A DNA stretch of 64,000 nucleotides. Origin: Sphingomonas cremea. Its GTDB lineage: Bacteria; Pseudomonadota; Alphaproteobacteria; Sphingomonadales; Sphingomonadaceae. The notes under the pieces are model-generated. The model did no database searches, had not been told where the DNA came from, and saw nothing but the letters and a program-made list of their open reading frames with translations. Location of the stretch: positions 1 to 64,000 of the forward strand of contig NZ_JAKFGM010000001.1 of assembly GCF_021502585.1 (NCBI RefSeq), read 5' to 3'. Position numbers and translations under genes: made by a program. This document shows positions 7,335 through 52,439 of this stretch, piece after piece; position 1 is the stretch's first letter; each line of letters opens with the position of its first letter.

Positions 7335-7393
7335 TGCCCCATCTCATTCAAGAACAAAGAATGAACACGGCCGCAACAATGCCACTGGCTGAC

Positions 7394-38384: not shown

Positions 38385-38460
38385 GGGGCTGTAGCTCAGA
38401 TGGGAGAGCGCTGCAATCGCACTGCAGAGGTCAGGGGTTCGATTCCCCTCAGCTCCACCA
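38385..38460 (+). tRNA. tRNA-Ala (anticodon CGC)
   Basis: Complete cloverleaf: acceptor GGGGCUG pairs with CAGCUCC (one G-U), anticodon stem CUGCA/UGCAG with loop AUCGCAC (anticodon CGC), T arm AGGGG-UUCGAUU-CCCCU, and an encoded CCA end. No integrase or att repeat is next to it. Confidence 0.95.
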
Positions 38461-38517
38461 GCCCCCTTCGTTGATATTCAACCACAATCTCGTGCCGGTT
38501 GCCATCGTAAGGGGTGA

Positions 38518-38547
38518 GCCCGCCGGCCAGGGGAGAAACCGGCGGGC
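38518..38547. terminator. Hairpin between tRNA-Ala and the pirin gene
   Basis: GCCCGCCGG, 12-base loop, CCGGCGGGC: a 9-bp perfect stem 18 bases past the pirin stop (leftward). No T run follows on the minus strand, so it may be a processing hairpin rather than a strong terminator. Confidence 0.45.
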
Positions 38548-38564
38548 CCGGGCGACGCGCGGGG

Positions 38565-39263
38565 TCAGGCTGCGTCGACCAATATGATTTCGCTGTCGTT
38601 GATCGCGGTGACCGCGATTTCGTCGACGTCGCGGATGGCAACACCGTCGCGCGCTCCGGCGGCGACGCCATTGACCTCGACCCGCCCGGTGGCGGGAACG
38701 AGATAGGCATTGCGGCCCTCGCCGAGCGAATAACGCACCGTTTCGCCAGCCTTGACCGTCACGCCGGAAACCCGTGCGTTGGCTCGGATAGGCAGGGCGC
38801 CATCGTCACCGCCCATCCCGCTGGCCAGCGTTACGAAACCTTCGGCACGGTCGGCCTTGGGGAAGGGCTTGCTGCCCCAATTCGGTTGCTCGCCTTCGCG
38901 GTCTGGCATGATCCAGATCTGGAAGATGCGGGTGACACCGTCTTCCAGATTATATTCGCTGTGCCGAACGCCGGTGCCGGCCGACATCACCTGGACGTCG
39001 CCCGCCTCAGTGCGGCCGACATTGCCCATATTGTCGCGGTGCGTGATCGCGCCTTCGCGGACATAAGTGATGATCTCCATGTCGCGGTGCGGATGGGGTG
39101 GAAAGCCGGTCTGCGGTTGGATGGTGTCGTCGTTCCAGACCCTCAGCGAGCCCCAATTCACCCGATCGGGATCATAATAGTTTGCGAATGAAAAGTGATG
39201 CTTGGCATCAAGCCAACCATGGTTCTCGCCACCGAGGCTGGAAAAGGGTCGAAGTTCAATCAT
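38565..39263 (-). CDS. Pirin-family protein (quercetin 2,3-dioxygenase-like)
   Basis: 232 residues, bicupin. FPPHPHRDMEIITYVREGAITHRDNMGN near residue 60 carries the metal-binding His/Glu set, and VQVMSAGTGVRHSEYN the fourth. The C-terminal cupin is more diverged, as usual in pirins. Some bacterial pirins oxidise quercetin; others bind partners such as pyruvate dehydrogenase, so activity is open. A LysR gene lies beyond the small upstream gene on the other strand, a typical pirin arrangement. Confidence 0.92.
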   Translation of the reverse strand: MIELRPFSSLGGENHGWLDAKHHFSFANYYDPDRVNWGSLRVWNDDTIQPQTGFPPHPHRDMEIITYVREGAITHRDNMGNVGRTEAGDVQVMSAGTGVRHSEYNLEDGVTRIFQIWIMPDREGEQPNWGSKPFPKADRAEGFVTLASGMGGDDGALPIRANARVSGVTVKAGETVRYSLGEGRNAYLVPATGRVEVNGVAAGARDGVAIRDVDEIAVTAINDSEIILVDAA

Positions 39264-39286
39264 TGATACTCTCCCGACTTATAAGA

Positions 39287-39526
39287 TTAAAGGGACAGGA
39301 TGCCGAGCGCGGCGATCTGCCGCTCGTTGAAGCCCAGCTGGGACAGCGCTTCGCGGCATTGGTCGGCAGGCCTGCGATCGCGGCGCGTCAGGGAAACGAA
39401 CTGCCGGATCGGATCGGGCGCTTCGCCCGACCGAGGATGACGGACGTCGATCCCCAGCAGTGTCGACGCGACTTTCTTCCATTCGGACTGGGTCAGCTTC
39501 GGTGCGGTTGCGTTCAGTACGGTCAT
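39287..39526 (-). CDS. Small hypothetical protein between pirin and LysR
   Basis: 79 residues, no signal or membrane part and no family recognised by me; WKKVASTLLGIDVRHPRSGEAPDPIRQFVSLTRRDRRPADQCREALSQLGFNE is helical and basic. The start ATG at 39526 has GAGGG nine bases upstream. It precedes pirin by 23 bases and probably shares its transcript from the LysR-controlled region. DUF3xxx-like small proteins of this sort are common in alphaproteobacteria. Confidence 0.68.
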   Translation of the reverse strand: MTVLNATAPKLTQSEWKKVASTLLGIDVRHPRSGEAPDPIRQFVSLTRRDRRPADQCREALSQLGFNERQIAALGILSL

Positions 39527-39576
39527 CGTTGTCACCCTCTTGGATTGGTGACGATGTAGGGCCGGGCAGCTCCAAT

Positions 39577-39592
39577 GATTAGTGGCATAATC
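39577..39592. promoter_or_regulatory. Inverted repeat in the LysR/pirin divergent region
   Basis: GATTA-GTGGCA-TAATC, a perfect 5-bp inverted repeat with a 6-base spacer, within the divergent promoter region and 9 bases before the LysR box. It may be an activation half of the same regulator's binding region. Confidence 0.4.
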
Positions 39593-39600
39593 TTGTGGAA

Positions 39601-39623
39601 ATTATTCAGAAAAGTCGAATAAT
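39601..39623. promoter_or_regulatory. LysR-type binding box (T-N11-A)
   Basis: ATTATTC-AGAAAAGTC-GAATAAT: a perfect 7-bp inverted repeat containing T-N11-A, five bases upstream of the LysR ATG. Its position over the ribosome site and start suits autorepression and control of the divergent pirin unit. Confidence 0.7.
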
Positions 39624-39628
39624 AGGAT

Positions 39629-40537
39629 ATGGCGAGTCCCGGTACTCCAACGTTCGATCAGCTGCGCATATTCCTGGCAGTGGCGGAAACCGGCAGTTTC
39701 GCCGCGGCCGGTCGCCGCCTTAACCGCGCTACCTCTGTTATCAGTTACGGCATCGACAATCTTGAGGCCCAGCTTGGCCTGGCGCTGTTCGAACGCGACG
39801 CCACGCGCAGGCCGACGCTTACCGTTGCCGGCCAAGCGATACTGGCCGAAGCGCGGACCGTCGCCCATGGAGTCGACGGCCTTCGCGCGAAGGCCAAGGG
39901 ACTGCTGGAAGGCCTTGAGGCCGAACTCAGCCTTGCGGTCGACGTCATGGTTCCGGCCGCGCAGCTCGGCGATTTGTTAAAATCGTTTCAGCGCGAATTC
40001 CCGACGGTATCGCTTCGCCTGCACGTCGAGGCGCTCGGCGCTGTGGCCGACCTGGTTCTCACCGGTCGGGCCCGGATCGGTATCAGCGGGCCGCTGGCGA
40101 CAATCATTGAAGGTGCCGATCAGCTGGAGAGGATCCATGCCGGCTCGGTCAAGCTTGTGCCTGTAGCAGCACCCGATCATCCACTGGCAAAGCTGCACCC
40201 CGTGCCGCCCGGCGCGACCCGTGACCATATCCAGCTGGTCCTGACCGACCGCTCCCCGCTCACCAAAGGGCGCGATTTCTCGGTCCTTAGCCCGCGAACC
40301 TGGCGGCTGGCCGACCTTGGCGCCAAACATGCCCTGCTTAGGGAAGGGATCGGCTGGGGCAGCATGCCATTGCCGATCGTCGAACCCGACCTTGTCGATG
40401 GCACGCTGGTTCGCCTTGCACTACCCGATCAGCTGGGCATCGATTATATGTTCGACGCAATCTATCGGACCGATACGCCACCTGGTCCGGCAGGGAGCTG
40501 GTTACTGCAACACGTTGCCGCGCGGCATTGGGCGTAG
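39629..40537 (+). CDS. LysR-family transcriptional regulator
   Basis: 302 residues. N-terminal winged helix (FDQLRIFLAVAETGSFAAAGRRLNRATSVISYGIDNLEAQLGLALFERD) and a periplasmic-binding-protein-like effector domain. It most likely controls the divergent pirin gene and its small partner, and itself, through the LysR box just upstream. The effector is unknown. Confidence 0.94.
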   Translation: MASPGTPTFDQLRIFLAVAETGSFAAAGRRLNRATSVISYGIDNLEAQLGLALFERDATRRPTLTVAGQAILAEARTVAHGVDGLRAKAKGLLEGLEAELSLAVDVMVPAAQLGDLLKSFQREFPTVSLRLHVEALGAVADLVLTGRARIGISGPLATIIEGADQLERIHAGSVKLVPVAAPDHPLAKLHPVPPGATRDHIQLVLTDRSPLTKGRDFSVLSPRTWRLADLGAKHALLREGIGWGSMPLPIVEPDLVDGTLVRLALPDQLGIDYMFDAIYRTDTPPGPAGSWLLQHVAARHWA

Positions 40538-40579
40538 CGTCCTCGCCGATCTCCCGCTGCAATGGCCCGTATCGACCAT

Positions 40580-40687
40580 TTAGCTGTGATATGGCGCAGC
40601 GGCCGCCACCCCGCCTTCGGGCATGGCTAGCGGGGCGACCAATATCGCCAGCGCGAACAGCATCATGAAAAGACGGCGAAAACTCAT
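40580..40687 (-). CDS. Candidate 35-residue secreted or membrane microprotein
   Basis: Read by eye on the minus strand: MSFRRLFMMLFALAILVAPLAMPEGG then a short tail. It has a basic start, a strong hydrophobic core and a small-residue end, like a leader or single-helix peptide. AGGGA is about seven bases before the ATG at 40687. The opposite strand offers a 60-residue reading starting at 40686, so only one of the two is likely real. Evidence is composition and ribosome site only. Confidence 0.4.
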   Translation of the reverse strand: MSFRRLFMMLFALAILVAPLAMPEGGVAAAAPYHS

Positions 40688-40868
40688 GTACAGTCCCTAT
40701 GCCCCTGACGGCCGCATTTATAAACGCCGGGTCGATGATTTAGGTGCGGCGGACAACCACGAGTTTGCCGCCTTTTCCCGCCCGCAAAGCGATTTGCCCA
40801 ACCGCCCCAGTTCGCGCTACATTGCCTGTGACGCGACGGTCGATGTGGTGGCCGCCTGCGCCGCGTAA
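40686..40868 (+). CDS. Alternative small protein on the plus strand
   Basis: A 60-residue reading starting ATG 40686 (MYSPYAPDGRIYKRRVDDLG, ending VVAACAA). Third-position GC is roughly 70 percent, so it is plausible as coding, but no domain, signal or strong ribosome site is seen. It overlaps the 3-base edge of the minus-strand microprotein start. Confidence 0.25.
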   Translation: MYSPYAPDGRIYKRRVDDLGAADNHEFAAFSRPQSDLPNRPSSRYIACDATVDVVAACAA

Positions 40869-40918
40869 CCAGGGCTGTCAGGCAAGTTGCTGGGCCCAAT
40901 CGTGGAGGAAGCGTCAAG

Positions 40919-41155
40919 ATGAACAAAACCGTTGGACGGGTCGACCGCGTCGTGAGGATTGTGGTGGCGGCCTCGCTCACCTTCCTTGCCGCCACTCCCG
41001 CGATCAATGGCGGGGTGGCTTATGGCTTTCTTGCCGTCGCCGCCTATCTCGTAATCACTGCGATTACCGGCCACTGCCTTATCTACCGGATGATTGGCAT
41101 CGAAAGCGATGTCCATGGTGGAGAATATCATAGCGGCCCGACTGAGGCCGACTGA
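40919..41155 (+). CDS. DUF2892 (YgaP-like) inner-membrane protein, copy 1
   Basis: 78 residues: MNKTVGRVDRVVRIVVAASLTFLAA followed by two hydrophobic helices and the end CLIYRMIGIESDVHGG. The pattern N-x-G-R-x-D-R-x-x-R at the start and GHCLIYRxxG after the second helix are DUF2892 features. GAGGAAG lies ten bases upstream. Function is not known; some members are fused to rhodanese domains. It is followed by a related gene 69 bases on. Confidence 0.82.
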   Translation: MNKTVGRVDRVVRIVVAASLTFLAATPAINGGVAYGFLAVAAYLVITAITGHCLIYRMIGIESDVHGGEYHSGPTEAD

Positions 41156-41224
41156 TCCGCCGAGCCCAGCTAGTCCGGGGCCGACCGGAGACAGGCGCCT
41201 GGACCCAGGTGGAGGAGCGTTATC

Positions 41225-41500
41225 ATGCTCAAAAACGTCGGCAATATCGATCGCGTAGCAAGAATGCTCGCGGCCTGTTTTCTGTTCTTCCTAGCTATAG
41301 CTCCGGGAGTGGTGCTCTCGGCAACGCCATCCGTGGATTATTGGCTCACCATTCTTCTTTATGTCGCTGGGGGATACCTTCTGCTCAGCGCCGTACTCGG
41401 CACCTGCCTCGTCTATCGAATGCTCGATATCGATAGCCACGTCCACGGCGGAACCTATTACAGCGGCGAGGATCCCTATGATGGGAGAGGGGGCAATTAA
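41225..41500 (+). CDS. DUF2892 inner-membrane protein, copy 2
   Basis: 91 residues, related to the preceding gene: N-terminal NVGNIDRVARMLAA, two helices, then GTCLVYRMLDIDSHVHGGTYYSG. The two proteins share the starting D-R-V-A-R and the final H-V-H/V-H-G-G segments, so this is a tandem duplication of old date. GGAGGAG lies ten bases before the ATG at 41225. Confidence 0.82.
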   Translation: MLKNVGNIDRVARMLAACFLFFLAIAPGVVLSATPSVDYWLTILLYVAGGYLLLSAVLGTCLVYRMLDIDSHVHGGTYYSGEDPYDGRGGN

Positions 41501-41547
41501 GCCCTGAGCGTCCGAACATGGCGAAGCGATTGCGCGGTGCTCGTCGG

Positions 41548-42540
41548 CTATGTCGAATAAGGCTTGGTGGCATCCCAAAGCCGACGGGCTTCTTCCGCAA
41601 TGATGTCGGAATATTCTTCCGGCCAAAACAATTTGCCCGTCTCGAACCGCATCACGCCTCGTGAGTTGCCGAGAGTGCGGTCGAGATAGTCGGCATTTGC
41701 GGGCGAGAAGATGGTGTCGGCCATGCCCCAAATTACCCGGGTGGGTACCTGAACTTGCGCCAGCTTCGGGGCGATGCCGGCCAAGGGATTGCGCTCGAGC
41801 GCGACGGCGTAGGCGTTCGCGAATGCCTTCTTACGAGGCGATACCAGCAAGGGCGCGAAATAGGTCTCGATTGCCTCGTCGGTCGGGTTGGCGGGGTTCG
41901 AATAGCACATGCCGCCGATGCCCGCGGGCGAACGCGCCAGTGCAGGATCGGCGCGCCACGGTGCCAGCCATTCGTCGACATACCGGCCTTCCTTGGCCAG
42001 CGCGATCACCGGCAGCATCGCTGCGGGAGGGCTTTCGATCTCGGTATCGCAATTGGTGAGTAGCAGCGTGCGGACCCGCCCCGGATGCCGCACCAGGAAT
42101 AGCTGGGCGACGGCCCCGCCACTGTCATTGGCGATCAAGTCGACATCTCGGACCCCAAGCTTGTCGAGCAGTGCGACAAGCATATCGACCTGCGCGTCGG
42201 GTCCGACCGATTGGCCGTCGTTTACTTCGGTATAGCCCATGCCGAGGAAGTCGGGTGCGATGCAGCGACGGTGCATCGACAGCCGCTCAATCGCATGGCG
42301 CCACTGGAAACTGTTTAGCGGAAACCCATGCAGGAACAGGGCAGTCGGACCGGCTCCATCCTCGACATAGGCAATCTTGCCCGCAGGCAATTTGACGAAG
42401 CGCCTTTTGCGACGGAATTCTTGCGCATGGAGTGCATCGATCGCCACAGGATCGCTCGTGACTGCGGCCGCGGCCCGGCCGGCAGCCAGTGTCGCTGCGG
42501 CGGTGCTGGCTGTAACCTTTAGAAACGTACGGCGGTCCAT
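41548..42540 (-). CDS. Alpha/beta-hydrolase fold protein, exported by the Tat system, possibly inactive
   Basis: 330 residues. MDRRTFLKVTASTAAATLAAGRAAA is a twin-arginine signal. The fold is clear: HGFPLNSFQW (oxyanion loop) at residues 71-80, nucleophile elbow ANDSGGAVA at 137-145 (Asp139 aligned with the Asp of dehalogenase/epoxide-hydrolase types, or Ser140), and WGMADTIFSP for the acid region. Where the catalytic His is expected, before PEE near the C-terminus, the sequence reads GKLFWPEE, with Leu304 in the His position. It may be a pseudoenzyme or use another residue. It is divergent to the AraC gene and probably controlled by it. Confidence 0.85.
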   Translation of the reverse strand: MDRRTFLKVTASTAAATLAAGRAAAAVTSDPVAIDALHAQEFRRKRRFVKLPAGKIAYVEDGAGPTALFLHGFPLNSFQWRHAIERLSMHRRCIAPDFLGMGYTEVNDGQSVGPDAQVDMLVALLDKLGVRDVDLIANDSGGAVAQLFLVRHPGRVRTLLLTNCDTEIESPPAAMLPVIALAKEGRYVDEWLAPWRADPALARSPAGIGGMCYSNPANPTDEAIETYFAPLLVSPRKKAFANAYAVALERNPLAGIAPKLAQVQVPTRVIWGMADTIFSPANADYLDRTLGNSRGVMRFETGKLFWPEEYSDIIAEEARRLWDATKPYST

Positions 42541-42613
42541 GTCCTCTTCTCCGTGCCCGAAGGGCTGCTATCGATTGGCGATCTGAAGCAGGCAGAGCAC
42601 GGGGCGGCCTGGA

Positions 42614-42637
42614 ATCGCTGTCGAGATTTTTAGCGAT
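42614..42637. promoter_or_regulatory. Inverted repeat in the AraC/hydrolase divergent region
   Basis: ATCGCT at 42614-42619 pairs with AGCGAT at 42632-42637 over a 12-base spacer. It lies midway between the two divergent starts. AraC regulators more often use direct repeats, so confidence is low. Confidence 0.3.
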
Positions 42638-42687
42638 CGTGGATAAGGGCCCGTCATGGCAGAACCGATTCTGGAAGCGGGCCTACA

Positions 42688-43518
42688 ATGTCTGAATTAG
42701 CGGTCCGCTTGCTGCACGAGACGCCGGCAATTGCGATCCGCGACATCCTGTGCAGCGGAACCTGCCGTCACAAGAGCGCGGCGGAATGTGCGAGCGCTAC
42801 ACATCTCGTTTTTCCCTATCGCGGTGTCTTTGCCCGCCATGTCGGTCGAAGCGAGGCGATAGGCGAAGCTAACCAGCTGATATTCTTCAACAATGGTGAG
42901 GAGTATAGCATCAGCCATCCCGCAGACGGCGGAGATGCCTGCCTTTCCTTGCTGGTTGCCGAGGAAGTGCTTCGCGAGCTTGCGCCGGTCGACCAGGTCG
43001 TTGCGGGCGAGCAGCTGCGGTTTCGCCGCCAGCATCGTGGCATCGATCCCAACGCCCAGTTGCTTCTTGCGCATTTGCGGCACCGCCTGGCGAAGGGCAT
43101 TGCCGAACCGCTTGAGGTGGAGACGATCGCGTTTGCACTGGTGGCCCGCGCACTGGGCGAGCGCAGCCCGAACGCTCGCGAACCGCGATTTGGAACGAAG
43201 AGGATCGTCGATCGGGCCAAGCGAATGCTGGCGTCTGAGCCTGCGCGGCGTTGGACATCGACGGAAATCGGACGCGAGGTCGGCGTCTCGCCTGTCTATC
43301 TCACCCAATTGTTCCGGCAGGTCGAAGGCGTTCCGCTCTACCGCTATCACCTGCGGCTGCGGCTCGCCCGGGCGCTCGACCTGCTCGACCGCTACGACGA
43401 TCTGACCATGCTGGGTCTCGATCTCGGCTTTTCGAGCCACAGCCATTTCACCGCCGCCTTCCGCCAGGCCTATGGCCAAACCCCGCGCGCGTTTCAGCGT
43501 TCCGCGGGCATTCGGTAG
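42688..43518 (+). CDS. AraC-family transcriptional regulator
   Basis: 276 residues. The C-terminal double helix-turn-helix is clear: RRWTSTEIGREVGVSPVYLTQLFRQVEGVPLYRYHLRLRLARALDLLDRYDDLTMLGLDLGFSSHSHFTAAFRQAYGQTPRAF. The N-terminal ~170 residues include a cupin-like sensor region. It is divergent to the Tat-exported hydrolase, which is the best candidate target. Confidence 0.92.
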   Translation: MSELAVRLLHETPAIAIRDILCSGTCRHKSAAECASATHLVFPYRGVFARHVGRSEAIGEANQLIFFNNGEEYSISHPADGGDACLSLLVAEEVLRELAPVDQVVAGEQLRFRRQHRGIDPNAQLLLAHLRHRLAKGIAEPLEVETIAFALVARALGERSPNAREPRFGTKRIVDRAKRMLASEPARRWTSTEIGREVGVSPVYLTQLFRQVEGVPLYRYHLRLRLARALDLLDRYDDLTMLGLDLGFSSHSHFTAAFRQAYGQTPRAFQRSAGIR

Positions 43519-43597
43519 GCAAATTAGCCGGCGCATCGGGCACTCGCGGCCTCTTAGCTTCACTAATTTCATGGGGACGGCGACCATTTTTGTGAAG

Positions 43598-44212
43598 TTA
43601 GAGTATGCGAACACGAGGTTGGGGGCGGTCGCGGCCTAGCAGGCGGTCGAGCTCGATCCGGTCGAGGATCGCCTGGTGTTCGGCCCAGACCTGGTCCTTG
43701 CGACGCTGCTCCTCCTCCCGCTGCCGGTCCAACTCCGCCATGTCCTGGCGGTAGCGGCGGCGGGAGACGGCGGTGCGGCGATAATCGTCGATGACCTTGT
43801 CCTGACCGCCGAGCAGGGCGATGGCCAGCGCGTCGGACCGGCGATGTTCGACCCGGACCAGCTTCCCGCGCCGGAACACCGGCACGAACGCGCCGCCAAG
43901 CGCACGCTGCAGTGCATCGGCGCGAACCCGCGCCACCCCCTGGTCGATCGCCATGTCCCAGGCCCGGGCGAAGTCATCGGCCCCGGGCGCGTAGAGCAGC
44001 TGGTATGCGCTGCGTGGGCTCATCCCCACCGCGCGCGCGGCGCGAGCGACGCTGCCGCAGCGCGACAAGGCAAAGATGAACGCCCGCTGCCGCCCCTCCG
44101 ACCACCCGCGGCGACGGGCGCGGAGGCGGGGGACGGGGGTGAAGGGGATGTGTTTCGTGGGGTCGTCGAATTCGGGTTCGAATTCGGTCCAGTCGAAGGG
44201 GGGCGTGCTCAT
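43598..44212 (-). CDS. HTH protein resembling a phage terminase small subunit
   Basis: 204 residues. The N-terminal half has WSEGRQRAFIFALSRCGSVARAARAVGMSPRSAYQLLY, a helix-turn-helix of the kind seen in phage terminase small subunits and in many stand-alone sphingomonad proteins. The C-terminal half is a charged helical region with MAELDRQREEEQRRKDQVWAEHQ, likely coiled coil. No large terminase, portal or other phage gene is nearby, so it is either a phage relic or a domesticated regulator; the start ATG at 44212 lacks a strong ribosome site. Confidence 0.65.
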   Translation of the reverse strand: MSTPPFDWTEFEPEFDDPTKHIPFTPVPRLRARRRGWSEGRQRAFIFALSRCGSVARAARAVGMSPRSAYQLLYAPGADDFARAWDMAIDQGVARVRADALQRALGGAFVPVFRRGKLVRVEHRRSDALAIALLGGQDKVIDDYRRTAVSRRRYRQDMAELDRQREEEQRRKDQVWAEHQAILDRIELDRLLGRDRPQPRVRIL

Positions 44213-44502
44213 CGACCATTCTATGCGCTCATGCGGGGGCTGTAGGACAGCATTTTACGCCCAGTGCAGCGGAGCGATTGCGCAGGGTTCAAGAGGCAGC
44301 ACGAAGAATTAGGAAACGCCCGGCCAGCTTGCTGCGAATCGGACGGGACTGTTGTGACGAATTTACCTCCTCAGGCTCCCTTCTCCCCGATTGCTCATCC
44401 CAAGCGCTGGCAGACAGATTCTGCGCCGTAACGTTTAGAACAAACGATGAACCGTTAATTAGAACATTCCACGAACGACGTCGTATGTATAAGGTGGTCG
44501 TA
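44213..44502. other. Intergenic region upstream of the HUH-motif gene
   Basis: No gene supported. It is more A+T-rich toward its right end. It holds the direct repeat TTAGAACA at 44435 and 44459, and the inverted repeat CGTTT-AGAAC-AAACG at 44432-44446. Confidence 0.5.
44435..44466. repeat. Two TTAGAACA direct repeats 24 bases apart
   Basis: TTAGAACA at 44435-44442 and again at 44459-44466. They precede a Rep-like gene, so they resemble a minimal iteron or a repressor site. Two copies are too few to call an origin. Confidence 0.4.
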
Positions 44503-45105
44503 ATGGCTACGAAATGGGGGTCCCGCTACATAGGGCCGAAACAAGCCGCTAGAGCGTTTCACGCCGTTAGATTTGCCAATGACAACGGCCGTCCGCTCAA
44601 TTTGCTCATCACGATTGAACTGACCAGCCTCGGTATCTCGCCCGAAGCTGCTGGACCCTTCTTTCAGAAGCTTTGGCAACGGGTCGGGCGGTGGTGGGCG
44701 TATCAACGAAAAACCAAGTGCAGGCCGTTTGGCCCGTTTGACTGCTACGCGGTTCACGAACACCCCAATCAAGGCCCGCGTCACGTTCATTGGTTCGTTC
44801 GCGCTCCAGAAGGGGCCCGAACAGAACTGGAGCGGATCGTCCGGTCGAGATTGGAGAAGCTGACCGGCCTCGCATGTCTCGACCGTGCAGTTCACTTCCT
44901 AGACGCTACCAAGCCGGGTGGTGTGGCCAAATACACGTTGAAGGGCGTCAACCCAGCTTACGCCGACCACTTCCATATGGAGGCGAGCGACCAGGGCTTC
45001 ATTCACGGCCGACGGTTGGCAATCAGCCGGAGCATTGGAGCTTCCGCTCGGCTAAAGGCCGGTTGGACGCGTATGCAAAGCCTGAGAAAGAGGCCGGTTA
45101 ATTGA
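44503..45105 (+). CDS. Orphan HUH-endonuclease-like protein (Rep/relaxase type)
   Basis: 200 residues. Three Rep-type motifs in order: motif I-like LNLLITIELT at residues 32-41, the metal-binding HUH motif RHVHWF (His94, His96), and the YxxK motif AKYTLKG (Tyr144, Lys147), the pattern of single-tyrosine rolling-circle Rep proteins. GRRLAISRSIGASAR near the end is a basic segment. Such enzymes nick DNA and stay bonded to the 5' end through Tyr. The ATG at 44503 has AAGGTGG six bases upstream, better than the ATG at 44485. GC content is lower than the neighbours. There is no plasmid or phage backbone around it, so its job is unknown. Inference rests on motifs, not a search. Confidence 0.7.
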   Translation: MATKWGSRYIGPKQAARAFHAVRFANDNGRPLNLLITIELTSLGISPEAAGPFFQKLWQRVGRWWAYQRKTKCRPFGPFDCYAVHEHPNQGPRHVHWFVRAPEGARTELERIVRSRLEKLTGLACLDRAVHFLDATKPGGVAKYTLKGVNPAYADHFHMEASDQGFIHGRRLAISRSIGASARLKAGWTRMQSLRKRPVN

Positions 45106-45136
45106 CCAGCCAATGTGCCGGTAAGCCGTCAGGCCT

Positions 45137-46165
45137 TCAAGGCGCCCCTAGCTCAAGCTCTTCAGAGCAGCGTGGTAAGGCCTTGTTGATAAGAGGCGTA
45201 TTGAGAGACCCGGTTCCCACGTAGTCCGGCGGTGCTCTCAGGCAGTAGCCGGAAGGCGTCTTTGCAGGGATCTTCACTGCGCCGGATCGCAAGGCGATGG
45301 CGCCGTTGATTGTCTGCACGGAGCCGACAGCGCTTGGACTGCTTGATTGTGAAGACGTAGCGAAAGACGAGCCGCCGGATAGCGCCCTAGGCTTGGCTTT
45401 GGACGCAAGCATTTGAGCGTAGGCATCAGGAACTGCCTGACCCTTCTTCAGCAACAGGTATCCGAATGGATAGCGCTCTCCGTTCCAATCAACATCGAGC
45501 CGGAATTCAATCGGCGCCTTGCCGTAATCAAGCTTTTGAACAACGACGAGCCCCGCAAAGGCCATCCCCGGATCGACGGTTGTCGTTTGCAGGAGATGCT
45601 CGCGAGCCATCTCAATTGTCTGGTCTAGTCGATATTGGATCAAAGCCATGCTTGCTGATGTATTCGCCATGATGCGATCAGCCTGAAGCTGCCCCGCCAA
45701 GCTCGGATAGCTACCGCTGTAATGGTATGAACCATAGGGTCCACTAATTGAGCCACTGTAAGTATCGCGCTGATTTGCAGCGGCCGCAGCACCTATTCCC
45801 CCGAGCAGTGCGAGACCGATCTTCCCCCACATGGCGCGGTTTTTGGCTTGGCGCTTCAACTCATCAAATGTGTAGATTCTTACCGGCTCCCCACCTGCCG
45901 AAGCATGAAGATTCTCAAGCCCCACGTTCGCAGGTTCGAGGCCGGCATTATAAACGCCAACTGCAAACACGGCATTGCTGTGGTCCCATTCCAGGAAACG
46001 GATTTGAACGGCGCCTTGTTGTTGCTGAAGATCAAGCGTGGGTACGCCTTTGAGATAGCGCGCCCCCTCGTTGCCAAGAATAAGTCCTTGGACGTCAATT
46101 TTCGGCGCAGCACTTGTAGGTGTGGCAAGCAAAGAAATAGAGACCGCTGCAACATACATTCTCAT
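45137..46165 (-). CDS. Hypothetical secreted protein (342 residues)
   Basis: Signal peptide MRMYVAAVSISLLATPTSA. The mature protein has a beta-rich N-terminal part (VQIRFLEWDHSNAVFAVGVYNAG), a hydrophobic Gly/Ala stretch near residues 118-136 (IGLALLGGIGAAAAAN), a Gly/Ser/Tyr-rich loop (GSISGPYGSYHYSGSYPS), then a second beta domain and a Ser-rich tail. I do not recognise the family. GGGGGTATTG precedes the ATG at 46165. Codon use and GC are lower than in core genes. Confidence 0.6.
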   Translation of the reverse strand: MRMYVAAVSISLLATPTSAAPKIDVQGLILGNEGARYLKGVPTLDLQQQQGAVQIRFLEWDHSNAVFAVGVYNAGLEPANVGLENLHASAGGEPVRIYTFDELKRQAKNRAMWGKIGLALLGGIGAAAAANQRDTYSGSISGPYGSYHYSGSYPSLAGQLQADRIMANTSASMALIQYRLDQTIEMAREHLLQTTTVDPGMAFAGLVVVQKLDYGKAPIEFRLDVDWNGERYPFGYLLLKKGQAVPDAYAQMLASKAKPRALSGGSSFATSSQSSSPSAVGSVQTINGAIALRSGAVKIPAKTPSGYCLRAPPDYVGTGSLNTPLINKALPRCSEELELGAP

Positions 46166-46272
46166 CGGCAATACCCCCCGCCGATTTTTGTCCGAGCGAG
46201 GCTATCATCTGTTAAATTTCCGTTTAATTCAAGCTCTCGGCAAAGCGACTTGGCCTCAATGCTTGGTATGAA

Positions 46273-46298
46273 AAGACCCCGGATCGCTCCGGGGTCTT
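46273..46298 (-). terminator. Strong terminator for the 46319-46714 gene
   Basis: AAGACCCCGGA-TCGC-TCCGGGGTCTT: an 11-bp perfect stem with a 4-base loop, followed on the minus strand by TTTTC. It starts 21 bases after the stop and can also stop transcription from the other direction. Confidence 0.85.
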
Positions 46299-46318
46299 CT
46301 ATTGTCTGTTGAAGATTG

Positions 46319-46714
46319 TCACCCAATTGTACTGACGGAGACCCTAAGTAACTCAATTTCCTTTGTCAGAGTCCGAAACCAATCGCCAAGTTCGTCGCGC
46401 GACATGACGCGGGCATTTAGGTGCCGTTCCGGATGGGGCACCAGCCAAACGCTGATGGGCGCCCCTCCCTGACTGGCTACAACGATATAGGCATGCGCAA
46501 CCAGGTTGCGGGCTGCAATTAGGGACTTGGAATCGGCCCCAGCCAGCTGGTCGGGCGTTAGGCGCCCCAGCTTCTGGCTAAACATCTTAGGTGAGTCCGG
46601 GCCGAGCGCTGCGGTTAGCTCGATTTCGAGTGCACAAAAGGCCTGGAGTAATGCTTCGCGTTTGTCGCGGCATTCTTCCGCCAACGGTGGAACAACTTTT
46701 GCAGGGGCATTCAT
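46319..46714 (-). CDS. Hypothetical helical protein (131 residues)
   Basis: No family recognised. Mostly helical and soluble; AEECRDKREALLQAFCALEIELTAAL, then a Leu/Arg-rich C-terminus. The ATG at 46714 has no strong ribosome site. The gene ends in a strong hairpin terminator, which supports it as a real transcription unit. Part of the accessory stretch. Confidence 0.55.
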   Translation of the reverse strand: MNAPAKVVPPLAEECRDKREALLQAFCALEIELTAALGPDSPKMFSQKLGRLTPDQLAGADSKSLIAARNLVAHAYIVVASQGGAPISVWLVPHPERHLNARVMSRDELGDWFRTLTKEIELLRVSVSTIG

Positions 46715-46814
46715 CGCGCCCAATTAGCGAATCATGATTAATAAAAGGCACCTCATTGCTGTGGGGGCTTCTCGTATTTGGGGCGGGACTTGGGATCGGC
46801 GAGCCGGCCCCTCC

Positions 46815-46851
46815 ACCAGCTACGCTGGTTCCCCTCCCCGTTCCGGGGAGG
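46815..46851. repeat. Tandem hairpin repeat (REP-like)
   Basis: ACCAGC-TAC-GCTGGT at 46815-46829 and CCTCCCCG-TTC-CGGGGAGG at 46833-46851, two perfect hairpins side by side. G+C-rich paired hairpins of this kind are dispersed repeats in sphingomonads. Confidence 0.65.
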
Positions 46852-46857
46852 ATCTCG

Positions 46858-47040
46858 TCATCCCGCCATCCCCGGCCTCACCACCCGCTTCCCCTTCGTC
46901 CGGCTGGTGAGGTGGAACATGCGGCAGCGGTCGCAGCGGTAGGGTCTTAGGGGGACGGCGGAGCGATCGGCGATGAGCTGCGCATCCTCGGCCGAACGGA
47001 ACCGCGCCTTCTTCTGGCAGATGCTCAGGCGGGTGCGCAT
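46858..47040 (-). CDS. Small CxxC-containing conserved protein
   Basis: 60 residues. The body LRPYRCDRCRMFHLTSRTKGKR has a CxxC pair and a following His, a zinc-knuckle-like fragment. Proteins ending in RCDRCR-x-x-HLTSR are frequent in sphingomonads and unnamed. AGGAACAACCT before the ATG at 47040 is a fair ribosome site. The N-terminus lies four to six bases after the palindromic repeat described next. Confidence 0.6.
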   Translation of the reverse strand: MRTRLSICQKKARFRSAEDAQLIADRSAVPLRPYRCDRCRMFHLTSRTKGKRVVRPGMAG

Positions 47041-47059
47041 AGGTTGTTCCTACACCGCT

Positions 47060-47124
47060 CGTCATTGCGAGCGAAGCGAAGCAATCCATGGATCGCCGCG
47101 CCGCCAGGGCGGCTCGCGATGACG
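47060..47124. repeat. Dispersed palindromic repeat (CGTCATTGCGAGC type)
   Basis: CGTCATTGCGAGC at 47060-47072 pairs with GCTCGCGATGACG at 47112-47124 with one mismatch, with a G+C-rich middle (GCAATCCATGGATCGCC). This type is a very widespread proteobacterial palindromic repeat (recalled). It separates the HupE stop from the upstream accessory stretch. Confidence 0.8.
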
Positions 47125-47135
47125 ATCAGTCGTCG

Positions 47136-48140
47136 TTAGACCCAGAAGTTATACACGCGCTCGATGACCCAGAAGCTGGCGAGGCCGCCGATCATGACGG
47201 CGGGGACGGCCGCGGCGCGGCGCAGATCGATCCGTTCCGGCACTAGCGCGAACAGCAAACGCATGGCCGCATATACCGCCGCGATGAACATCAATTGGCC
47301 GACCTCGACCCCGATGTTGAAGAACAGCAGGGCCAGCGGAATGGCGTTGGGCGGCAGGCCGATCTCCGCCAATGCCCCGGCAAAGCCGAGGCCGTGCAGC
47401 AGACCGAAGGTGAATGCCACCAGCCACGGCTGTTTCGAGGCCAGCCCCTCCCGCCCGCGCTGCTGCTGGATAATCTCGCTGGCGACGAACACGATCGACA
47501 AGGCGATCGTCGCCTCGACCGGCGGGCCCGGGACGTGGATGACGCCCAAAGTGGCAAGCGCAAGCGTGATCGAATGGGCAAGGGTGAAGGCGGTCACGGT
47601 CCAGAACAGCCGCCGGTTGAAGCCGACGATCATGATGAGCGCGAGCACGAAGCACAGGTGATCGAAGCCGGAGAGGATATGCTCGACCCCGAGCAGGCCA
47701 TAGGAGCTGGCCACGGCCATTGCCCCCTGTTCCCGGGGGATATCGACCCAGGCGTTGGAGGGATGGACCAGGACGGTCGACTGGATGCCGTTCGCCTGCT
47801 GCACGCGGACCAATACGTCGGCGATGGTTCCCTGCAGGCCGACAAAGTAAATCCGCTTGCCGGCCAATCCGTCCGGAGACTCAATAAGGCGGCGTTCCAC
47901 CCGCGAGTCCGAAAGTTCGCGCACGGCGGTTGGAGTGAGATCGCGAACGCCGGCGGGTAGCTGCAGCCTTACGGGCAGGGGCATGCCGCCGTTCGTCGGC
48001 GTTCGCCAAAGCAGCGAATAGCGGCCGGGAACGACCTCATTAATCTCAAGATAGGCGGGGCGCGATTCATGCGCCTGGACGGCGGTCGCGGCCATCAGCA
48101 AGCCCAGCCACAGCGCCAGCCGCAGCCACAGCCGGTTCAT
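47136..48140 (-). CDS. HupE/UreJ_2-family membrane protein
   Basis: 334 residues. Signal-like start MNRLWLRLALWLGLLMAATAVQA; an extracytoplasmic beta-rich part (about residues 25-190) and then a C-terminal block of about six membrane helices carrying GVEHILSGFDHLCFVLAL and FTLAHSITLALATLG, the HupE metal-transporter signature with His residues. The family is linked to nickel or other cation uptake. It overlaps the PPIase stop by four bases (ATGA), so the HupE, PPIase and DUF3604 genes are one translationally coupled operon. The longer reading upstream was rejected. Confidence 0.9.
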   Translation of the reverse strand: MNRLWLRLALWLGLLMAATAVQAHESRPAYLEINEVVPGRYSLLWRTPTNGGMPLPVRLQLPAGVRDLTPTAVRELSDSRVERRLIESPDGLAGKRIYFVGLQGTIADVLVRVQQANGIQSTVLVHPSNAWVDIPREQGAMAVASSYGLLGVEHILSGFDHLCFVLALIMIVGFNRRLFWTVTAFTLAHSITLALATLGVIHVPGPPVEATIALSIVFVASEIIQQQRGREGLASKQPWLVAFTFGLLHGLGFAGALAEIGLPPNAIPLALLFFNIGVEVGQLMFIAAVYAAMRLLFALVPERIDLRRAAAVPAVMIGGLASFWVIERVYNFWV

Positions 48141-49051
48141 GAGGCCGGGCTTTTCGGCAGGACCACCTGGTAGTTTGCGCGCATTGCCGCGAACGCCTTG
48201 CGCTTCGCTTCGGCGCGCTGGTCGTCCTGCCAGGCGGATTCCATCTCCGCGCGGTCGACTTCGCTGAATGCGGGCACGCGGCCCGGCGTCATCGCCTCGA
48301 CCAATATGAGATGCCAGCCTAGCCCTGACTCGACCGGTCCCTGCCAACCGCCGGGCCGGAGGAGGAACAGGGCCTTCGCAAATTGCGTGCCGAAGACGTT
48401 GGCGACCTCGTCCGGGGAGCGATTAGCGTAATAGTCATAGTCGGGGAAGCGGTCGCCGATCGATCCGCTGGCGCCGCATGACGATTTGGAGCGGAGCTGG
48501 GCCAATGCCGCTTTGGCGCGGGCTTCGGCCGGCCCGCCCGGGCTGTCGGGCGAAAAATAGGCGTGGCAGAAGGTGACCTTGGCGGGAAGCGCGAATTGCG
48601 CGCCATGTTGCCCGTACCACGCCTTCAGTTCGGGAACGGTCGGGTCGCGCAGGGCCGAAACATCCTCCATCAGGAATTCCAGCTTCTGCCCCAGCCGCCG
48701 GCGGACGATGGTATCGTCCTGGTCGAGGCCGAGCTTCAGGGCTTCGCGATAAAGTACTTCCTCGCGCACCGCGTCTTCGACCAGGTCGTGCCATTCGGCC
48801 GGGGTGGGCGGCCGCTTCCACTTGGCAGTCCAGCCCAGCTCGATCTGGCGCATGTCGTCGCTGGTCAGCTCGATCCGCGAACCCGGGTCCGCCACGCGCC
48901 GGGGCGTGACGGCGAGGTAGAGCATGAAGATGGCCGCGCCGATCAGCAGGAAAAGCAGCAGCGGTTCGTGCAGCGCCTTGCGAATGCGCTGCCTTACCGT
49001 TTGCGGCAACTGCTCCGCCCCCGGGGCCTTGTCGCTATGATCCCGTGGCAA
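48137..49051 (-). CDS. Peptidyl-prolyl cis-trans isomerase, parvulin-like
   Basis: 304 residues. One N-terminal membrane helix (PLLLFLLIGAAIFMLYLAV) anchors a periplasmic SurA/PpiC-like domain with a helical SurA_N-type region (EEVLYREALKLGLDQDDTIVRRRLGQKLEFL) and a C-terminal parvulin fold (GGWQGPVESGLGWHLILVEA). It probably chaperones an exported partner from this operon. It overlaps the DUF3604 stop by 17 bases and HupE by four, so all three are co-translated. Confidence 0.85.
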   Translation of the reverse strand: MPRDHSDKAPGAEQLPQTVRQRIRKALHEPLLLFLLIGAAIFMLYLAVTPRRVADPGSRIELTSDDMRQIELGWTAKWKRPPTPAEWHDLVEDAVREEVLYREALKLGLDQDDTIVRRRLGQKLEFLMEDVSALRDPTVPELKAWYGQHGAQFALPAKVTFCHAYFSPDSPGGPAEARAKAALAQLRSKSSCGASGSIGDRFPDYDYYANRSPDEVANVFGTQFAKALFLLRPGGWQGPVESGLGWHLILVEAMTPGRVPAFSEVDRAEMESAWQDDQRAEAKRKAFAAMRANYQVVLPKSPAS

Positions 49052-51041
49052 GGGTCAGCAATCCCCTGTTGGCAGGCTTCGCCTTTGCCTTCGGCCGCGG
49101 ATCGACATTTGCCGCGATCCTCACCCCGTTTTTCTGCAGGCGAGCCTGTGCGGTCGTGGGCGTGTACCAGATCGGCGATCCCCATGCCCGCTCCTGGACC
49201 GTGGGCGAAACGCCCTTCGGCGGCGCAACGCCCAGCGCCTTGGCATCATAGGTCGACCAGCGCGGCGTCGGGATCTGCAGCACGCGGACGTAATAGAAGG
49301 CATGCAGCGACGGATCGAAATCCGGATCGCGCCACACCTTCTTCAGCTCCACCGCGCCCTCCGTGTTGGTGTAGCTGGCGTTCTTGATGTCGACGGTGCT
49401 GCGGATCGCGGGGACCTTGCCCGTGCGCGGATCGGGCCTGCGATCCCCGGCCCACGCGACGTCATAGACCTTCTCGTAAAGCTTGGTGTCCTTGGTCCAG
49501 CCCTTGACGATCTGGATGCGGTCGAGGTTGCCGTCGTCGGGGTCCTTCAGCGCCCAGACAAGGAAGCTTGGCGCGCCGCCCTTTCTCGGCCGGAGGTCCC
49601 CGCCCATGGGCACGCCGTTGCGGTAGCCGACCTTGACCCAGTCGCGCTGGCCGAACACCGTCGCCGGATAGTTCCAGCCGCCAAACATGCGCACCTTAAT
49701 GCGTACGCCGCTGGTGCCGTAGACCTCCTTGCGGCGCATGGCGTCAAAGATCGATTCCCGCGTATTCTGCTCGGCCCAGACGCCGGCCAGGCCCGACGTG
49801 CTCAGCTTCACAATGTCCATGCCGGCCTCGACCGTTCCGGCCAGGCGGGCCTTTGGCGAGCCGTCCAGGAAAGCATGCCCGCCGAAATAGTTCGACTGGG
49901 TATAGGCAGTGACCGTGTTGTGGGAATCGCCGGCACCGACCATGCCGAACTTATAGGGATTGTAGCCACGCGACGCCTGCATTGCCAGGCCGTGCTGATA
50001 TGCTTCGCGGACGAAGCTGCCGTGCGGGTTGGAGTAGCTGTTATCGAGGCCGATCATGAAGTTCATCAGCTCATAGTCGGCGAACTCATCATTGGGTGAC
50101 AGCTCGGGCGTGGTTTCCGACGTTCCCTTCAGCTGGTGAATCTCGGTCAGCGGCTCATTGTTGAGCCGCTCCTGGGCCCAGGCCGGCGTCAGGGGCTTGC
50201 CCTTGCCGTCGGTCGAGACCGGGAACATCAGCCCGTTGCTGAGGTTCCCGTTGTGGGAAATGGCGAGCAGGTCCGTGCCCGATTTCCGCTGCCCGTCCAT
50301 CCACGCCCAAAGATCCTCGGCCTTGTCGGAATCCATGGAAGTGAAGGGGACCTGCGGCAAATGCTTGCTGTCGCGGAAGAAGATGTTGCGATGCATGTTC
50401 TGATAGCCAGGCGCCGACGTCCATTCATAGGAAACGAACGCGGTGAATTTCCCGGGCTGATTATATTTTTCGGAGATGGCGACATATTCGTCCCACACCG
50501 ATTTTGTCAGCGCAGGATCCGCTAGGCCCGGGATCGGCTTGTTCGTGGCAATGAACGATACGAGATATTTGAAGACCTGCATGGCCTGCTCGGGAGAACT
50601 GGCCTTGAGCTTGTCGGCGATGGGAAGCTTGCTGACAGGCGACGTCGGATCGTTCGCCAGGCGGATCATGCCCAGATATTCCGAGTGATCGGTGACACCC
50701 TGGAAGTCGAGCGGCTTGTTTAGCTTCACTTCATAGCCGCCGGGATGCTTGATCGGCATGCCCATGGCGAACTGATATGCCTCGGCAGGTCCGGTCAGCG
50801 TGTTGCCGATCGTGAACGCATCCATCGACCAGCTGGTGTGGTTATGGGTCTGGCCGAAAAACACGTCCCGGTCGGGATTGCTGGGGATGGCCGCCGCCGG
50901 AGCGTCCTGCGCCAGGCTGACGGACAGCACGCCATCCGGAACAACCGCATCGGCATCGCGCGATTGCGCCAGATAAGCCCCGCCCGCCAGTAAAGCGACA
51001 ACCGCGACGGAACCTGCAAATTTGCCCCTGTTCGACATCAT
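49035..51041 (-). CDS. DUF3604 protein, exported (putative PHP-like hydrolase)
   Basis: 668 residues with a signal peptide (GSVAVVALLAGGAYLAQSRDADA region). DUF3604 landmarks: VFFGQTHNHTSWSMDAF near residue 62 (PHP-like metal His motif), NGNLSNGLMFP, and GDSHNTVTAYTQSNYFGGHAFLD near 370. Activity is not established for the family. GAGGAG lies five bases before the first ATG at 51041. Together with a parvulin-like PPIase and HupE it forms a recurrent three-gene cassette. Its product may need the isomerase to fold, by inference. Confidence 0.88.
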   Translation of the reverse strand: MMSNRGKFAGSVAVVALLAGGAYLAQSRDADAVVPDGVLSVSLAQDAPAAAIPSNPDRDVFFGQTHNHTSWSMDAFTIGNTLTGPAEAYQFAMGMPIKHPGGYEVKLNKPLDFQGVTDHSEYLGMIRLANDPTSPVSKLPIADKLKASSPEQAMQVFKYLVSFIATNKPIPGLADPALTKSVWDEYVAISEKYNQPGKFTAFVSYEWTSAPGYQNMHRNIFFRDSKHLPQVPFTSMDSDKAEDLWAWMDGQRKSGTDLLAISHNGNLSNGLMFPVSTDGKGKPLTPAWAQERLNNEPLTEIHQLKGTSETTPELSPNDEFADYELMNFMIGLDNSYSNPHGSFVREAYQHGLAMQASRGYNPYKFGMVGAGDSHNTVTAYTQSNYFGGHAFLDGSPKARLAGTVEAGMDIVKLSTSGLAGVWAEQNTRESIFDAMRRKEVYGTSGVRIKVRMFGGWNYPATVFGQRDWVKVGYRNGVPMGGDLRPRKGGAPSFLVWALKDPDDGNLDRIQIVKGWTKDTKLYEKVYDVAWAGDRRPDPRTGKVPAIRSTVDIKNASYTNTEGAVELKKVWRDPDFDPSLHAFYYVRVLQIPTPRWSTYDAKALGVAPPKGVSPTVQERAWGSPIWYTPTTAQARLQKNGVRIAANVDPRPKAKAKPANRGLLTLATGS

Positions 51042-51176
51042 GCCATCTCCTCAGCGAAACGCTGAATTCCCAAGGTCGACATTCCGGCGTTTAACGCCGC
51101 CTGCCCATCGGGACTTTTCCCTAGAAGGCATTAGCGTGAGAGACGGCTGAAACACCTCCAGCCAATCGCTGTAAAA

Positions 51177-51211
51177 AAGGGCAGCGCCGCGGATTGCGAC
51201 GCTGCCCTTTT
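51177..51211 (-). terminator. Terminator for the 51238-52074 gene
   Basis: AAGGGCAGCG ... CGCTGCCCTT with a 15-base loop, 27 bases past the stop; on the minus strand the stem is followed by TTTTTT. The loop is large but the T run is strong. Confidence 0.8.
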
Positions 51212-51237
51212 GCGCGCTTTGTCGCGCTTGCCCGTCG

Positions 51238-52074
51238 CTATTCCTTCTTGTTGGCGATCCAAGTGACCTTGGACTGGTCGCGCGGATCGACGCTGGTGAA
51301 GGCGAAGGACTTGCCGTCCGGGCTCGGGACGATCGTCGTCACGCCAATTTCCTTGCCGTCGCGCGTATAGGTCTCGCGAAGGCTGTTCGCGCCATCGCGC
51401 GCGATGGCGACCATGGTTCCGCCCGGATCGTTCTGGACCGCCACGGCCGGCCCGCCGAGCTCGGCGGTATAGCCCTGGCCCTGGCTGCTCTGGGTCACGG
51501 TGTTGCCGCTAATCTTGTAGACCATGTCCAGCGCTGCCTGGGAATAGTCGGCGAACTTGTCGGGCATCCACTGCCCCGAAATGGCATGGGCGCCGGCCGG
51601 GGCAGGCCCGGCCCGGGTCGAGGTGGCAGTTCCCTCGATGGGCGGCGAATTGGGGGTGGTCGCATCGACGAACTTGGTCGTCATCGTTTTTCCGTCCTCC
51701 GATACCTGAAGGACAGTCGATGAAACCTCCTTGTCGCCCTTCTTGCGGTGGAATTCGACCGTGCGGTCGTCCACAGCCTTGATCTGCAGGCTGTCATAAT
51801 AAGGACGATCCGTCACGGGGTGGAACTGGCCGTCGGCCGAGGCGGTCAACGGAGGGATGCAAGTGCTGCATGAATAAGTGCCGTCCTTGAGCAGGAATTC
51901 GTTCGGCTTCTGCTCAAACTTCAGGCTGGCCAGGTCGACCTTCCAGGTGCCGTTCAAGGCCTCCAACGACGCGGATTCCGCGACGGCGGCCTCGTTGCCG
52001 GCCGGCTGCTGCTTGCACGCCGGAAGCGACACAACCAGTGCCGCCGCAATCGCGGTCGAGATCAACATCCTCAT
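51238..52074 (-). CDS. Hypothetical lipoprotein (278 residues)
   Basis: Lipobox VVSLPAC with Cys at about residue 20 (MRMLISTAIAAALVVSLPAC). The mature part reads as two similar beta-rich halves (NGTWKVDLASLKF ... ; ISGQWMPDKFADYS ...), each starting with a Trp, like a repeated lipocalin/ lipid-binding barrel-like unit, plus a CSTC pair in the first half. No family is certain. AAGGGGGTATCACC precedes the ATG at 52074. A strong terminator follows. Confidence 0.75.
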   Translation of the reverse strand: MRMLISTAIAAALVVSLPACKQQPAGNEAAVAESASLEALNGTWKVDLASLKFEQKPNEFLLKDGTYSCSTCIPPLTASADGQFHPVTDRPYYDSLQIKAVDDRTVEFHRKKGDKEVSSTVLQVSEDGKTMTTKFVDATTPNSPPIEGTATSTRAGPAPAGAHAISGQWMPDKFADYSQAALDMVYKISGNTVTQSSQGQGYTAELGGPAVAVQNDPGGTMVAIARDGANSLRETYTRDGKEIGVTTIVPSPDGKSFAFTSVDPRDQSKVTWIANKKE

Positions 52075-52332
52075 GGTGATACCCCCTTCTTTTACGCGAA
52101 AGGGAAGGCCCACTGCGGACGATCCCCCGCTTGAGGCGGCCCCGTCACAGCAAGATAGTATTGCTGGCGGGCAGGGTCGTCCGAAACAGGGGCGTAATGA
52201 CTCGCCGCGGACTCCACAAGTGACGAATTAACCCGTGCTAGTAACCCATGAGTGGAAACATTTCCCTGCTACGTGGCGACGCAGGAATCGGCAGCGGCCT
52301 GGCCGGGAAGGGCCGGGACGAGGCACCGCAGC
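52075..52332. other. Intergenic region between the lipoprotein and pnp (part 1)
   Basis: No gene is supported. It is the promoter side of the lipoprotein gene and contains no structure I could support beyond the hairpins listed next. Confidence 0.4.
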
Positions 52333-52404
52333 AAAACGGCCCCGCATCCTGGGCCCCGTCAAAGTAGTACCTTGATGGGACCCGATCCGCGGGGCCATTG
52401 TTTT
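52333..52404. other. Large imperfect hairpin downstream of pnp, candidate structured RNA or terminator
   Basis: Arms pair in four parts: AAAAC/GTTTT (52333-52337 with 52400-52404), GGCCCCGC/GCGGGGCC (52338-52345 with 52389-52396), GGG/CCC (52351-52353 with 52381-52383) and CCCGTCAA/TTGATGGG with one G-U (52355-52362 with 52372-52379), leaving a 9-base loop. The last stem base before the outer arm ends in GTTTT on either strand. It lies 36 bases after the pnp stop and may be its terminator, a mobile palindrome, or a small RNA. Confidence 0.6.
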
Positions 52405-52415
52405 AGAGAACTGGA

Positions 52416-52433
52416 CCCCGGCCAAGGCCGGGG
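52416..52433. repeat. CCCCGGCC-AA-GGCCGGGG hairpin next to the pnp stop
   Basis: A perfect 8-bp G+C stem with a 2-base loop, flanked by CTGGA and AACAG, seven bases from the pnp stop. A dispersed sphingomonad repeat type, or the first stem of a compound terminator. Confidence 0.65.
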
Positions 52434-52439
52434 AACAGC

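Follow-up and report, generated by a model that had tools for sequence, protein, structure and literature searches.

Endonucleases of the HUH superfamily nick one DNA strand, keep hold of its 5′ end and leave the 3′ end free for strand displacement. Among described systems, RAYT/TnpA-REP is a solitary chromosomal single-tyrosine HUH gene (PMC6006769), integrated CRESS-like bacterial plasmids contribute chromosomally encoded HUH Reps (PMC6668415), and the rudivirus SIRV1 has a Rep with an HUH fold (PMC6668415). Here we describe a gene at positions 44503..45105 (+) of a 64,000-nt stretch of Sphingomonas cremea DNA (contig NZ_JAKFGM010000001.1, positions 1 to 64,000; hereafter the window). It encodes a 200-residue protein supported as an HUH/YxxK single-tyrosine nuclease by its predicted fold, its conserved residues and a tyrosine placed in a helix. 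Two LexA boxes and a short element shared with relatives stand in front of it. We propose, with a probability of roughly 0.55, that the gene is an SOS-controlled accessory nickase of mobile elements, with a site in its own leader and lodged in a variable region beside a tRNA-Ala gene. The computed basis of this explanation is the fold, the conserved residues, the LexA boxes and their match to host SOS genes, the shared leader element and the patchy spread of the family.

Fold and conserved residues of the HUH protein

The reading frame is intact from its ATG start, and the translation carries H94-V-H96 and Y144-TL-K147, the HVH and YxxK motifs that an earlier sequence-only reading had pointed out. 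In alignment A1 (81 rows, namely the query and 80 of 85 homologues, with P0011, P0014 and P0084-P0086 excluded) E86, H96, Y144 and K147 are invariant, and H94 is found in 77 rows, the other four having N. The expected conservation of both histidines and the tyrosine is therefore complete for H96 and Y144 and nearly so for H94; among 26 rows of the wider family, H94 is kept in 20 and H96 in 23. The gene is under constraint: pN/pS (the ratio of nonsynonymous to synonymous differences per site) is 0.28, 0.33 and 0.47 against loci L003, L004 and L005, respectively, with pS at 0.72-0.82, near saturation.

The AlphaFold2 model (predicted local distance difference test score, pLDDT, of 94) contains an HUH-endonuclease-like palm, as that reading had anticipated, and places Y144 within helix 138-145. 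Its top structural matches are SIRV1 Rep, the Rep of adeno-associated virus (AAV)/parvovirus and viral Reps, although the best Foldseek E-value against PDB is only 2.3e-3. Profile searches gave less: PF23343 (REP_ORF2-G2P) scores 13.6 bits, below the Pfam gathering cut-off of 27.8, and six of 26 family members match it weakly (E ≤ 0.1; best value 0.0015), as do two second-clade members (0.00019 and 0.00096). No relaxase family matched the window protein, NCBIfam returned nothing for it or for four relatives, and comparing the sequence with those of solved structures brought up no plausible relative. Similarly, no Y1_Tnp (PF01797) match was listed up to E 5, a range in which HMMER filters drop most weak matches. 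The protein is thus neither a REP_ORF2-G2P member by the Pfam cut-off nor a RAYT by profile; of the HUH assignment made from sequence, the profile side stays below cut-off and the nuclease identity is supported by fold and residues.

LexA boxes upstream of the gene

Two exact GAACN7GAAC boxes precede the gene, GAACAAACGATGAAC at 44438..44452 (+), starting 65 bp before the ATG, and GAACATTCCACGAAC at 44462..44476 (+), starting 41 bp before it; the LexA motif published for Alphaproteobacteria is GTTCN7GTTC. In the same genome this box begins 90 bp before recA and 31 nt before the lexA ATG, and others lie before uvrA, imuA and rmuC; at pdeM, a site overlaps the opening codons of the longest frame (gene names after NCBIfam, where imuA and rmuC stay under the curated cut-off). 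Surroundings were inspected for 40 of the 73 genomic sites and, the window's two apart, no SOS gene was recognised at the other inspected ones. The chance of two boxes within 150 bp at the genome rate is 9e-6, an estimate that takes the gene as given beforehand and the 150 bp span and motif as chosen by the analyst.

Relatives point the same way in part. An exact box lies at most 150 bp upstream in 3 of 44 family loci and in 5 of 1029 control open reading frames (ORFs; p 0.003). With non-overlapping control ORFs the counts are 3/23 for the family and 2/7 for a test set of eight further plasmid loci opened afterwards (seven testable; the match in L144 starts at residue 86), against 3/286. Over the span from -200 to +60, boxes occur in 5/44 loci and in 0/44 downstream controls. 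Two plasmid loci, L137 and L139, have the HUH gene divergent from a UmuD-type S24 peptidase gene, with two boxes in each shared leader and a Y-family polymerase in one of them. In P0027, P0053 and P0073, the only homologues extending as far as 22 residues upstream, a LexA box is one possible back-translation of the N-terminal extension; since protein sequence does not fix the codons, this is compatible with such control and not proof of it. Taken as a prediction from sequence, SOS control of the window gene and a few relatives is well supported.

On Agrobacterium plasmid pAt2 (L137:1084-5263), where the S24 peptidase and Y-family polymerase genes are divergent from the HUH gene, a ligD-annotated ligase lies just beyond. 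The window also has a third exact box at 7352-7366, close to a tRNA-Glu gene and roughly 70 bp ahead of where ORF 6821-7282 (-) starts.

The leader element

Between the LexA boxes and the start codon lies ATGTATAAGGTGG (44485..44497, +), a candidate nick or binding site for which the relatives' consensus is TAGTATA..TGGC and which contains the Shine-Dalgarno-like AGGTGG. Words were counted in the upstream 150 bp of 23 non-redundant members of the family: AGTATA occurs in 8/23 (3/774 control ORFs), TAGTATA in 6/23 (0/774) and TATAAG in 6/23 (7/774), near the top of all words. Dinucleotide shuffling gave AGTATA a mean of 0.6 and a maximum of 5 over 1000 shuffles. Against controls likelier to be genes TAGTATA stands at 6/23 versus 1/286, with 0/23 on the reverse strand and 0/23 downstream; the looser TAGTA[AT][AT] finds 7/23, and alignment by eye 13/23, the window included. 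In the test set, TAGTATA is present in 3/7 loci and TAGTAAT in a fourth; L141, L142 and L143 fall outside the expression and were taken by eye as diverged forms. With the kin L137 and L139 (76% DNA identity) counted once, TAGTATA stands at 2/6 versus 1/286 (p 0.001).

Position adds to these counts. Compared with L003, L004 and L005 in turn, the window has 11-13 identical bases among the last 15 before the ATG, and identity falls to chance level further up. TAGTATANNTGGC matches 7 of 144 loci, which reduce to five different places, each immediately in front of an HUH gene; some of these places helped define that pattern. A conserved element fronting the gene of an HUH enzyme suggests a cognate site, and we regard it as the most likely nicking target of the enzyme, judging from sequence conservation.

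Part of this conservation may have a plainer cause. The element could be only a promoter -10 box and a ribosome-binding site, with the protein cutting elsewhere, an alternative that touches a single part of our proposal (the odds given to the various readings accordingly do not sum to one) and that we consider possible, if on the improbable side. The absence of any sigma-70-type promoter found in 44200-45400 speaks against it, as do the 27 identical bases shared by L141 and L143 at the element, with both sides at chance identity. So does its position: its spacing from the start is not constant among the more distant relatives, and in L077, L012, L137 and L139 the element directly adjoins the likely start codon, which leaves too little room for either function, so that it cannot be a ribosome-binding site there. 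In the closest loci a ribosome-binding role may explain some of the conservation.

Several results weigh against the proposal of an SOS-controlled nickase with a leader site. GAACN7GAAC is not enriched in the genome (73 sites versus 80 for the reversed control), boxes in the test set fall to 1/6 (p 0.08) once L137 and L139 are counted together, and SOS boxes do not mark the family as a whole. On the side of the element, its near-fixed place in the four closest loci, with 15-17 nt to the ATG, together with its AGGTGG, suits a ribosome-binding site, and TATAAG resembles a -10 box. Some six-letter word was common to eight sequences in 4/300 shuffles, so that by itself the count of the six-letter word is not extreme, and more weight falls on the longer word, the position and the later test. 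AGTATA is found in 0/18 rows of the second HUH clade (A4). A hairpin around the element was not supported (swap test, p 0.09), and DNA folding z-scores are -2.4 for L003 and -2.6 for L004 with 0.7 for the window and -0.6 for L005. Finally, none of the 17 viral-contig loci returned by four scans with the element patterns (7, 0, 8 and 2) has an HUH relative in its stretch.

Spread of the family and plasmid relatives

The protein has 85 homologues in an unnamed and patchy family, so that the term orphan used in the sequence-only reading suits the neighbourhood of the gene and not the family. Most of the 85 are close homologues of metagenomic origin. A single-protein search matched one of 71 genus genomes, its own. 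Profile matches, most of them distant, were found in 25/298 genomes of the family, 31/396 of the order and 5/385 of the class, draws that overlap and include the own genome, and in 12/397 of a larger family draw at E ≤ 1e-20. Close relatives with DNA amount to four loci of named genomes, two of which are near copies (99.1% over 11,525 bp). We found no paper on this HUH family in the literature searched, which does not prove that none exists.

This patchiness argues for acquisition rather than long domestication, contrary to the earlier suggestion of a domesticated nicking enzyme. One form of domestication would be a RAYT/REPtron-like transposase handling a dispersed palindromic host repeat. 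As a solitary chromosomal single-tyrosine HUH gene with short repeats of the genus at window 44259-44362, 46804-46855 and 47058-47130, the locus invites that reading, which we nonetheless hold to be very unlikely: Y1_Tnp is not among its listed matches, the motif is YxxK, the repeats also occur in relatives where the gene was not found, and the genome has few copies of the leader element (TATAAGGTGG, three; reversed control, two). These repeats are common in genus genomes, and the first of them, 44259-44362, lies directly upstream of the HUH gene.

Plasmid relatives were found in 18 of 72,556 records, each below 60% identity and, in the 18 listed matches, annotated as hypothetical protein. We examined 15 of the 18, whole or in part, the other three being further copies of an 8427-bp Rhodopseudomonas plasmid. 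Another annotated replication gene is present in 11/15 stretches. In a twelfth, pRm1132f, which PMC10194956 refers to as a rolling-circle plasmid, Rep_1 matches weakly and below cut-off (E 0.0014). The relatives therefore look accessory rather than initiators, and they are probably not the sole replication gene of their plasmids. For the same reason a role as replicon initiator is not favoured, although the relatives may still act as a second replication module of their plasmids; the window gene itself has no replicon. The idea that it is the last piece of a lost replicon is not favoured either.

HUH-fold nickases serve in both replication and relaxase roles. The gene could accordingly be a minimal relaxase whose leader element is an origin of transfer (oriT), with a helper conjugation system mobilising plasmids or parts of the chromosome upon an SOS trigger, a reading that overlaps with ours and that we judge improbable. 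Plasmid typing is divided on it: 13 of the 18 plasmids with relatives are typed non-mobilizable, which speaks for it, but five are already typed mobilizable or conjugative. In L011, transfer genes and a TraA relaxase (so annotated) precede the HUH gene, and L003 has a stretch 77% alike to that traA on the same side; against this, no relaxase family matched the window protein, and we know of no catalogued nic site resembling the element.

A phage Rep is not favoured either, as no match was found among 50,697 phage records and no relative in viral contigs. Nor is a defence gene: PADLOC gave a single hit among 26 members, with an E-value of only 0.046.

Some relatives lie in settings of their own. 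In Croceibacterium mercuriale (L004:5657-6953) direct repeats of 84 and 134 bp, 86-88% alike, flank the HUH gene, an arrangement that resembles a gene beside a partial duplication. Loci L073, L074 and L081, from three genera, have 3.9-7.2 kb in common at 92-94% DNA identity, a stretch that ends 175-177 bp beyond the distant HUH gene in all three and looks like a recently moved element with that gene at its end.

Chromosomal neighbourhood and variable region

The left neighbour of the gene (43598..44212, -) encodes a weakly helix-turn-helix (HTH)-like protein whose HTH match is sub-threshold (E 0.0099) and which has no terminase match to back its earlier description as terminase-like. On the right lies a gene for a 134-aa protein (46319..46723, -). 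The stretch around the HUH gene is lower in GC content, as had been noted, if only mildly: 500-base windows between 44250 and 46749 range over 0.52-0.59, versus 0.56-0.71 elsewhere in 38-52 kb. A Pfam scan of 13 window ORFs (38.5-51 kb) placed nine above the family cut-off (pirin, LysR, two YgaP-like membrane proteins, an alpha/beta hydrolase, AraC, HupE, a rotamase and a DUF3604 protein) and left four below it, the weakly HTH-like protein and three others. None of the 13 was recognised as a plasmid, phage or conjugation gene, in agreement with the sequence-only reading.

Comparison with related genomes, which that reading had suggested, is informative in one relative: G050 lacks the HUH gene and retains both flanks, the HTH gene at 79% and the 134-aa gene at 76% DNA identity. 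Between them, the window's 2.0 kb with the HUH gene cannot be aligned with the 1.9 kb of G050, and both flanks thus fall outside the system. Also kept in G050 are tRNA-Ala (cgc; 38385..38460, +), the backbone that starts at 52504 and some segments close to the YgaP-like genes; from tRNA-Ala to that backbone (38460-52504) the window has 14 kb and G050 8.7 kb, with genes partly different. The non-aligning interval between kept flanks therefore puts the HUH gene in a variable region by tRNA-Ala, which forms its left edge, the right one being near 52504. In a second genome, G009, counterparts of window 44259-44349 and 46805-46855 are only 26 bp apart; both stretches occur apart elsewhere in the genus, so this apparent empty site proves nothing and was set aside. 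An RNA element is also not favoured, with no Rfam match at the gathering score in 43000-47200.

Such a setting might suggest that an integrated rolling-circle plasmid or phage has degenerated here, losing its other genes and leaving the HUH gene as a remnant without present function. The variable region beside a tRNA gene fits this, as does the lack of any other mobile gene recognised nearby, and in two same-genus genomes (L082:2319-6150 and L083:2611-5678) a tRNA-Ser gene is followed by a tyrosine integrase and, 1.0-1.7 kb downstream of it, by a distant, second-clade HUH gene. The intact frame, the catalytic residues kept under the constraint reported above, the LexA boxes and the occurrence of distant relatives as single genes on plasmids mostly showing another replication gene make a remnant unlikely.

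Proposed mechanism

We infer the roles of the residues, the nicking, the LexA binding, the leader element as a site and the consequences of nicking from the features above. The protein would be a metal-dependent single-tyrosine HUH endonuclease, with E86, H94 and H96 as metal ligands, Y144 as nucleophile and K147 as helper. LexA at the two boxes would keep the gene off until an SOS response allows expression. The enzyme would then nick one DNA strand at a cognate site, for which its own leader element is the best candidate, hold the 5′ end and free the 3′ end for strand displacement. As an accessory to alphaproteobacterial plasmids and integrated elements, the gene may have arrived in the region next to tRNA-Ala, and nicking could, after damage, release a strand in rolling-circle fashion or mobilise the DNA linked to the gene.

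As for its purpose under SOS, autoregulation would be the plainest reading and mobilisation or amplification of linked DNA the boldest. In its strongest form the latter would be a damage-triggered one-gene mobilisation module, in which release of LexA leads to a nick in the leader and rolling-circle displacement of the DNA that follows; we regard this as doubtful. If true, one gene and some 13 bp would allow plasmids, and here a hotspot of the chromosome, to be transferred or amplified when DNA is damaged, and some plasmids typed non-mobilizable would carry such a module. Were the element an origin or oriT, small Alphaproteobacteria plasmids would have an extra mobilisation route missed by typing schemes. 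Solitary HUH genes are easily overlooked, as the hypothetical-protein annotation of the plasmid matches illustrates; through the SOS boxes, nicking would be coupled to DNA damage, and a family with a common leader element is a ready substrate for a nicking test.

Comparison with known systems

RAYT/TnpA-REP shares with the window gene its solitary chromosomal setting, but here the Y1_Tnp match is lacking, no dispersed palindrome of its own was shown and the spread is patchy rather than vertical. Reps of the integrated CRESS-like plasmids, also chromosomally encoded, are described with a helicase domain and in site-specifically integrated elements (PMC6668415), whereas the window has a 200-aa nuclease fold alone and no integrase was seen. 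In PF23343, the Reps of microviruses and filamentous phages, HxH is followed by YxxK as in the window protein, and the microvirus Rep is also a fold match; the sub-cut-off score, the lack of a recognised phage gene nearby and the absence of matches among phage records set the window protein apart. The AAV/parvovirus Rep origin-binding domain and pMV158 RepB are likewise among the closest known systems. The highest structural score belongs to SIRV1 Rep (ORF119, PDB 2x3g; Z 8.4, root-mean-square deviation 2.8, 110 of 116 residues), which is similarly a small single-domain HUH fold, but identity is 14% with no sequence match, SIRV1 infects archaea, and the window gene has SOS boxes and a leader element. 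In predicted fold and in motif the protein is Rep-nickase-like, and the gene is one member of a wider family rather than a lone relic.
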